Position numbers and translations under genes: made by a program
IMG/VR virus record: IMGVR_UViG_3300025120_000173
Location: 1 to 39,178 of that record
DNA from: a virus
DNA: 39,178 nucleotides
Strand: one strand, 5' to 3'
Shown: positions 1 through 854 of the stretch, piece by piece
How the letters are laid out: every line of letters begins with the position of its first letter
How positions within the stretch are numbered: position 1 is the stretch's first letter
Notes under the pieces: model-generated
Seen by the model: only the letters and a program-made list of their open reading frames with translations
Told to the model about the DNA's origin: nothing
Database searches by the model: none

Positions 1-245
1 CTCATCTTTTGTGGATACCTTCCCCCAAAAGATATAGAGTCGTGCCTGAAAAGATACGACACCATACCCTAATAAGTGTTAGTACACAATTAGAAATCCT
101 TAGTGGTCGCTAATGTAGGACATTGTAATGCTTGAGTCAAAAGCGAGGTGTACTAGCAACTGAGTATCATAACTCGCTAAATTACAATAAGACTGACAGT
201 ACGGAAAGACGACTCCCTTAGGGGATAACTTTAAATAAATAAATT
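1..245 (+). ncRNA. Candidate structured RNA or control region before the early genes
   Basis: No convincing ORF. By my count GC is about 39% over 1-240, against roughly a third in nearby coding lines. Exact complementary arms seen: ATCTTTTG 4-11 with CAAAAGAT 26-33; GTCGT 39-43 with ACGAC 56-60; TTAG 100-103 with CTAA 110-113 (extended by TCC/GGA); ATTGTAAT 122-129 with ATTACAAT 181-188, enclosing AGCGAG 142-147 with CTCGCT 173-178. TAGTACAC 80-87 also pairs with GTGTACTA 148-155, crossing the 122-188 helix (pseudoknot). GAGTCGT 37-43 pairs with ACGACTC 209-215 as a possible closing helix that competes with the 39-60 hairpin. It could be a structured RNA, a replication or packaging site, or a divergent promoter region; strand is not determined. 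A near-consensus -7 box lies inside it at 226-233. Confidence 0.35.
226..233 (+). promoter_or_regulatory. Near-consensus Bacteroidota -7 box before the early operon
   Basis: TAACTTTA matches TAnnTTTG at five of the six fixed positions and ends 12 bases before the first early gene. No clear -33 TTTG lies about 20 bases upstream. If used, the transcript would start about 237-240 with a very short A-rich leader, so the structured region upstream would not be in this mRNA. Confidence 0.3.
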
Positions 246-854
246 ATGGCAAATTATTGTTGGAATCACGTAGTGTTTAATGGAGACGCTGCAAAGATTA
301 AAAAATTACAAGAAAAGTTTTCAAAATACGAAGAGACAAATTACTTTACAGAGTTTGGAGATTATGTTTTAGACAGGGGAAAGATTGGTGATGATGAAGA
401 AACACTAAAGCAAAGGCACGATGACTTAGGATATTCATATGGAACAAGGTGGTGGGACTTTACAATGGACGACATATACCCCTCAGGAATCGCAGAAGAC
501 ACTGAACTTAAAATCATGGGCGACAGTGCGTGGTCACCTCCTATTATGTTAATAAGTGAAATCTCAAAAGTATATAAAGTAAAGGCAGAAATAGAATATG
601 ACGAACCTGGTATGGACTTCGCAGGTAAATTTACCTGGAACGAATTAGGTGCAAAAACTAGCCAATGGGAGGGTTCATCATGCGAGATGAGATACAATGA
701 GGATAAAATAGGCTGGATAGAAGACAGAATGTTTTGTTATGAAGGTGAGGACAACTCAGAGTATACCTATAAGAAGCTAAGAGAAGACTATCCTTATGCC
801 ACCAAAACACACATCAGAAATTTAAGAGAGCAAATAATTAAACTAAATGAATAA
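246..854 (+). CDS. Api92-like/YubB ferredoxin-fold-domain protein
   Basis: 202 residues. The N-terminus (MANYCWNHVVFNG), the tryptophan-rich YGTRWWDF at residues 65-72 and GDSAWSPP at 92-99 resemble the ferredoxin-like domain of Api92/YubB (DUF1281-type) proteins, common on phages and plasmids and of unknown molecular role. The acidic C-terminal half continues the fold with further aromatic residues. No catalytic motif or membrane segment is visible. The ATG follows an A/T-rich leader with no Shine-Dalgarno sequence, as is usual for Bacteroidota. It is the first gene of the rightward early arm and sits just after the structured region at 1-245. The family call rests on motif recognition; a role in early takeover is only inferred from position. 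Confidence 0.7.
   Translation: MANYCWNHVVFNGDAAKIKKLQEKFSKYEETNYFTEFGDYVLDRGKIGDDEETLKQRHDDLGYSYGTRWWDFTMDDIYPSGIAEDTELKIMGDSAWSPPIMLISEISKVYKVKAEIEYDEPGMDFAGKFTWNELGAKTSQWEGSSCEMRYNEDKIGWIEDRMFCYEGEDNSEYTYKKLREDYPYATKTHIRNLREQIIKLNE

Follow-up and report, generated by a model that had tools for sequence, protein, structure and literature searches.

The window analysed here is a virus record of 39,178 bases that encodes a Sak annealing protein, an exonuclease and a primase. Its first 245 nucleotides raise the question of whether the stretch ahead of the gene at 246 contains a structured RNA and, if so, what that RNA does. The original prediction had proposed a candidate new RNA with a possible pseudoknot, and both compensatory changes in 33 sequences and an excess of G-U pairs bear this out. 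Positions 77–225 of the plus strand are a real, evolutionarily conserved structured RNA with two interlocking pseudoknots, intergenic in marine phages.

A conserved RNA with two interlocking pseudoknots

Positions ~77–243 are kept at 71–82% DNA identity, upstream of primase, in 17 relatives. The homologue comparison gave no counterpart for positions 1–75, and DNA similarity between the window leader and annotated phages yielded nothing informative. Exact matches to the 3' motif AAGACTGACAGNACGGAAAGACG were located in 36 viral contigs and in two contigs of bacterial metagenome-assembled genomes (MAGs), and 30 distinct close copies were compiled from them. A covariance model built from 12 of these copies recovered diverged members (L040, L044, L045, L047, L049/L051 and L086/L121); the copy in the L041 record (locus L241) was seen with this first model and scored higher with a second. 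The element is also carried by L121 and L122, contigs in MAGs named 'Bacteroidetes bacterium'. Both are probably phage, since at the element L122 is near-identical to viral contigs L020/L021 and L121 likewise to L086. The features of the window RNA and its flanks are as follows.

1–72, plus strand: upstream flank, outside the element and unmatched in relatives; two local hairpins can form here
77–87, plus strand: 5' arm of helix A, TGTTAGTACAC; pairs with 148–158 and crosses helices B and C (pseudoknot 1)
98–119, plus strand: hairpin H1, with CC/GG at 98–99/118–119, stem 100–104/109–113, loop GGTC at 105–108 and a conserved bulge TGTA at 114–117
106–108, plus strand: 5' arm of helix K, GTC in the H1 loop; pairs with GAC at 191–193 (pseudoknot 2)
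122–129, plus strand: 5' arm of helix B, ATTGTAAT; 7 of 8 pairs changed on both sides
142–147, plus strand: 5' arm of helix C, AGCGAG; covariation in the alignment
148–158, plus strand: 3' arm of helix A, GTGTACTAGCA, immediately 3' of the helix C 5' arm
173–178, plus strand: 3' arm of helix C, CTCGCT; pairs with 142–147
181–188, plus strand: 3' arm of helix B, ATTACAAT; pairs with 122–129
191–193, plus strand: 3' arm of helix K, GAC; loop/junction variants
194–198, plus strand: TGACA (UGACA), invariant and unpaired; first part of a widespread 3' module
199–213, plus strand: hairpin H4, with pairs 199-213, 200-212, 202-211 and 203-210, bulged A201 and loop GAAAGA at 204–209
214–225, plus strand: hairpin H5, TCCC TTAG GGGA; missing from some diverged members
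246–854, plus strand: downstream gene, a DUF1281_C / Api92-like protein, with its start codon 20 nt after H5

The RNA is read from the plus strand, because G-U pairs far outnumber A-C mismatches (33:2, not counting a single U-G pair that is present almost throughout) and because the loop of the last hairpin, H5, is UUCG or GAAA in several copies. As had been predicted, the element is richer in GC than its surroundings (0.38, versus roughly 0.32 for the whole window).

Both sides have changed in 23 of the 29 nested pairs of the 33-sequence alignment, and standard pairs make up 96.5% of paired cells, compared with 76% in shuffles. The covariation check on homologues that had been proposed gave a score of 0.536 against 0.158 (sd 0.012) in shuffles and 0.04–0.09 in slid versions; fitting the alignment to the model biases it towards the structure, and its sequences, being related, do not count as independent. 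Helices B, H1 and H4, however, are anchored to conserved flanks with few gaps. The two nested helices first noticed in the window, B and C, both carry two-sided changes in homologues: B is paired in 100% of cells, and in C such changes occur at 6 of 6 pairs, with a weak innermost pair. Pair 200-212 of H4 is found as T-A, C-G, G-C and A-T among members.

The crossing pair, originally placed at 80–87/148–155, really extends over 77–87/148–158. This helix, A, was assessed on its own with a control in which arms were exchanged among the sequences. The mean score was 20.4 for own arms and 13.8 (sd 3.0) for swapped arms, and 55% of sequences exceeded the control's 95th percentile; the control is conservative, as arms exchanged between relatives may remain complementary. 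The 5' arm is 8–11 nt ahead of H1 in most rows, and the 3' arm is beside C. Because helix A crosses B and C, the predicted pseudoknot is supported. The second pseudoknot, between the H1 loop and 191–193, had not been foreseen, nor had the recurrence of the 3' module in many other phages. Its helix, K, has 3 bp in the window (106–108/191–193) and 4 bp in diverged members, and different subgroups show TGTC/GAC, AAAGA/TCTT, AACGC/GCGT and CAACTTT/AAGT at the same positions. Helix K is well supported by these comparisons, to a lesser degree than A, B and C, given its 3 bp in the window and the small number, four, of variants.

The complementary arm pairs first reported are all present in the window. 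Three exact arms of at least 8 nt were counted against 0.34 expected (reached in 0.6% of dinucleotide shuffles), and five of at least 7 nt against 1.6 expected (reached in 2%). A comparison of fold energy with shuffled sequence had also been suggested; it favours structure for 1–245 (z = −2.3) but hardly for the conserved part, 76–228 (z = −0.97). Fold energy is a poor guide here and is not the evidence for the structure, because a nested folder cannot show pseudoknots.

Those parts of the original prediction that reach into positions 1–75 did not hold. The proposed closing helix, 37–43/209–215, lies partly in this non-conserved region, and its other arm belongs to the conserved 3' hairpins; the local hairpin 39–43/56–60 falls inside 1–75 and has no counterpart in relatives. 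The idea of two alternative folds thus involves two helices that are not conserved. Frame 1 is open in translation from the contig edge to a TAA at 70–72, and 1–72 may be the tail of an upstream gene, a weak case in that 23 open codons are not rare by chance. The strongest local folding is found here, in two hairpins at 4–33 and 39–60 (z = −4.7 for 1–75), which are absent from relatives and may belong to an upstream feature severed by the contig edge.

Genomic context in the window family

The element is intercistronic in co-directional early operons, and its neighbours are exchangeable. A start codon follows the motif by 27–40 nt in 30 of 30 close copies, and upstream genes are co-directional wherever they can be read. 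By this measure the locus is not the divergent leader it was first taken for. Sorted by eye, the downstream genes represent nine or more unrelated groups. Those upstream include phrog_21574, Sak, phrog_12644, phrog_6590, phrog_33624 and a DnaC-like loader. L096 has the element between its Sak and exonuclease genes; in the window, the DUF1281-like gene follows the element, and both of those genes come further downstream. In one subclade (L005, L006, L008, L010 and L013) the last codons of the upstream gene contain the 5' arm of helix A, and the stop codon follows within a few nucleotides.

Of 36 records searched, 16 had a match, with one copy in each. When the second covariance model was applied to 45 relatives, most of them previously without a detected copy, a single one matched.

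The suggestion that the leader separates divergent arms of a circular molecule is likewise unsupported. The primase has 185 relatives in viral contigs, many of them in records of 50–65 kb, and the window, which is not known to be complete, is therefore probably a fragment; in addition, the neighbouring genes of relatives are co-directional. Readings of the locus as an origin or a packaging site gained no support. Further into the window, positions 1081–1392 encode a small protein with a sub-threshold match to the C-terminal helix-turn-helix of DnaA, adjoining the recombination and replication genes.

A 3' module that recurs in other DNA phages and in RNA phages

The 3' part of the element consists of a helix ending just before UGACA, followed by a hairpin with a GARAGA loop. 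Positions 191–213 of the window fit this description, and the module recurs in many unrelated dsDNA phages. A relaxed pattern, TGACWGNNCGGARAGACG, gave at least 120 matches in viral contigs, compared with 32 in all for the reversed control pattern. Among the matches listed, complementary bases flank the fixed part in 115 of 119 forward sites; by the mirrored rule this holds for 15 of the 32 control sites. Module stems other than CG/CG were also seen. At 47% of sites, compared with 19% in a swap control, the stem directly before UGACA is complementary to sequence upstream, again among the matches listed, and GAA often precedes its 5' arm. A general pseudoknot scan upstream of 113 wider-module sites gave a weak excess, with 11.5% above the 95th percentile of controls made by mononucleotide shuffling; in the 25 sites where AA precedes the stem, 16% scored beyond a swap control's 95th percentile. 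No pseudoknot is claimed for the wider set, because this excess is weak; clear enrichment is confined to the stem adjoining UGACA.

With short consensus queries, the module mapped mostly to phage genome gaps that lack annotation, and the phages that bear it include those of Vibrio, Erwinia, Rhodobacter, Bacteroides, Mannheimia and Sinorhizobium as well as cyanobacterial phages. A looser pattern was near background in 295 genomes of one bacterial class (8 genomes matched, versus 5 control matches). The gap to the next start codon peaks at 20–30 nt (35 of 81 among the matches listed), and many copies lie 3–9 nt 5' of a tRNA. Adjoining genes encode DNA polymerases, annealing proteins, SSB, HNH nucleases, a T7-type endolysin, a GroES-like protein and portal proteins. 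Tandem copies 150–300 nt apart occur in L162, L166, L192, L217 and L248. For the module regions of L086, L143 and L145, DNA similarity to annotated phages was uninformative. Several GAAAGA-looped hairpins stand in a row within about 250 nt in L198, L199, L210, L218 and L229, which are prophage-like contigs.

The module is also present in ssRNA phages. L123 is such a phage (replicase, E = 1.7e-95), and in its clade (L123, L263, L264 and L372–L378) the UGACA/GAAAGA module lies in the 3'UTR, close to the contig end. The complementary stem before UGACA varies and covaries among the members of this clade. It is possible that the modules of DNA and RNA phages arose by convergence. Two ssRNA-phage contigs, L259 and L262, stop at the same point within the module (TGACAGNAC/GG, with the break at AC/GG), which could reflect cleavage, reverse-transcriptase stops or assembly.

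Known RNAs and possible functions

The Rfam 15 covariance models gave no match in the window (positions 1–1000 were also searched at E values up to 10), in keeping with a candidate new RNA, and none at the module in 40 module-bearing loci; one further search returned only a chance-level hit. No description of the element was found in open-access sources. Its novelty rests on these two absences and would be reduced by any description published in a subscription journal. The large ornate phage RNAs, such as GOLLD and ROOL, are likewise structured, non-coding and near tRNAs, but they are far larger than the element, and none has an Rfam match in the window or the tested loci. The loop CGGAAAGAC resembles 23S rRNA near 2055–2063, a similarity that was set aside as probably coincidental.

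The reading that we tentatively prefer, plausible though short of probable, is that the element and its module act in cis in RNA processing or stability. Gene-specific regulation is disfavoured because the neighbours are exchangeable. Translation control is disfavoured as a general role because copies occur before tRNAs and near ssRNA 3' ends, and antitermination of RNA polymerase because copies occur in ssRNA genomes. With these set back, the remaining role would be one on the RNA itself, by processing, protection or recognition. Two crossing helices (A over B and C, and the H1 loop with 191–193) lead into the unpaired UGACA and the GAAAGA-looped hairpin. The module may then act on its own RNA as a rigid block with a recognition site, and so mark, process or protect an RNA segment at a gene or tRNA boundary. 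In the subclade where the 5' arm of helix A lies in the last upstream codons, a ribosome would hold the pseudoknot open while terminating, so that it would fold after upstream translation. The structure, the co-directional setting, the exchangeable neighbours, the single copy, the spacing to start codons and tRNAs, the ssRNA 3'UTRs and the overlap of helix A with the upstream stop region in that subclade were all counted in favour of processing or stability. Against it, 44 of the 45 close relatives searched with the second model evidently either do without the element or carry a form that the model missed, and the tight start-codon spacing is also compatible with translation control. The confidence attached to this and the following readings is a matter of judgement, not measurement.

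A self-cleaving ribozyme, in which the pseudoknots and the near-invariant UGACA and GARAGA form a catalytic core cutting between genes or tRNAs, is unlikely, if still a serious candidate. The RNA is compact and pseudoknotted, with near-invariant unpaired bases, and its presence in phages of several bacterial phyla would require no specific host partner. The tandem copies, the proximity to tRNAs and the like ends of L259 and L262, possibly an assembly effect, also fit. However, conservation points to no cleavage site, an element that cut itself so close to the terminus of an ssRNA genome would come at a cost, and no known ribozyme family in Rfam 15 matches. Theta ribozymes, which are HDV-like, are small pseudoknotted phage RNAs often found beside tRNAs (PMC10879173). 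Their fold is a nested double pseudoknot in which P4 is followed by J4/2, with the catalytic C, and then by the 3' strand of P2, and they cleave at the 3' end of tRNAs (PMC10879173). Copies of the module, in contrast, mostly precede tRNAs or start codons. The element differs from the theta topology in that no strand 3' of the last hairpin pairs back, and there was no Rfam HDV match.

Processive antitermination, with the nascent RNA binding RNA polymerase so that terminators are read through, as for HK022 put or the EAR element, is improbable. A single copy in early operons, indifferent to its neighbours, would suit such a role, and in the wider set the module is often near early replication and regulator genes. 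HK022 put is indeed comparable: it is a cis-acting phage RNA of about the same size (~70 nt), is found in early operons and is indifferent to the genes that follow. However, putL, located in HK022 and compared, differs from the element in both sequence and fold, with neither UGACA nor a GARAGA hairpin. Its solved structure has two stem-loops joined at G35, a triplex and a 5' AGACG duplex, and no pseudoknot (PMC9378689). The module also adjoins portal and T7-type endolysin genes, and the ssRNA-phage genomes that carry it are not transcribed by RNA polymerase. The lambda-type nut site, with boxA and the boxB hairpin, similarly combines a short conserved box with a small hairpin downstream whose loop is rich in purines. 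In the element both box and loop are different, the window family has pseudoknots, and the module occurs in ssRNA phages; no N-like gene was identified.

Translational control of the downstream gene, by a riboswitch, a protein-binding operator or a coupling element at the ribosome landing site, is similarly improbable. The near-constant distance to the start codon and the overlap of helix A with the upstream gene end in one subclade would accord with it, but the downstream genes of the window family are of at least nine unrelated kinds, some copies precede tRNAs, and those in ssRNA 3'UTRs have no gene after them. Least likely is a role as a decoy or in trans, through binding of a host factor or defence protein: the module is common in DNA and RNA phages and near background in bacterial chromosomes of one class, and terminator-like hairpins sometimes follow it or several hairpins stand in a row, but it has no known partner, and in the window family the element lies inside operons.

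Taken across dsDNA phages of several bacterial phyla and ssRNA phages, the module may conceivably be an RNA catalyst not recognised before, or else bind a universal host machine as its ligand, with the double pseudoknot of the window RNA as its most elaborate form; on balance we consider this doubtful. A structured RNA common to DNA and RNA phages, and uncatalogued, would amount to a common tool for phage gene expression that has escaped annotation. The core is compact, and the predictions for each helix are open to compensatory mutants. Its cultured carriers, among them Nahant Vibrio phages, Erwinia phiEt88 and Mannheimia 587AP2, make its function directly testable. In one of the Vibrio phages, 1.033.O (L242), the module lies near position ~1501, where some 1.2 kb carry no annotation; most flanking genes are on the other strand, and together with the surrounding hairpins it is possibly a stand-alone non-coding RNA in a cultured phage.
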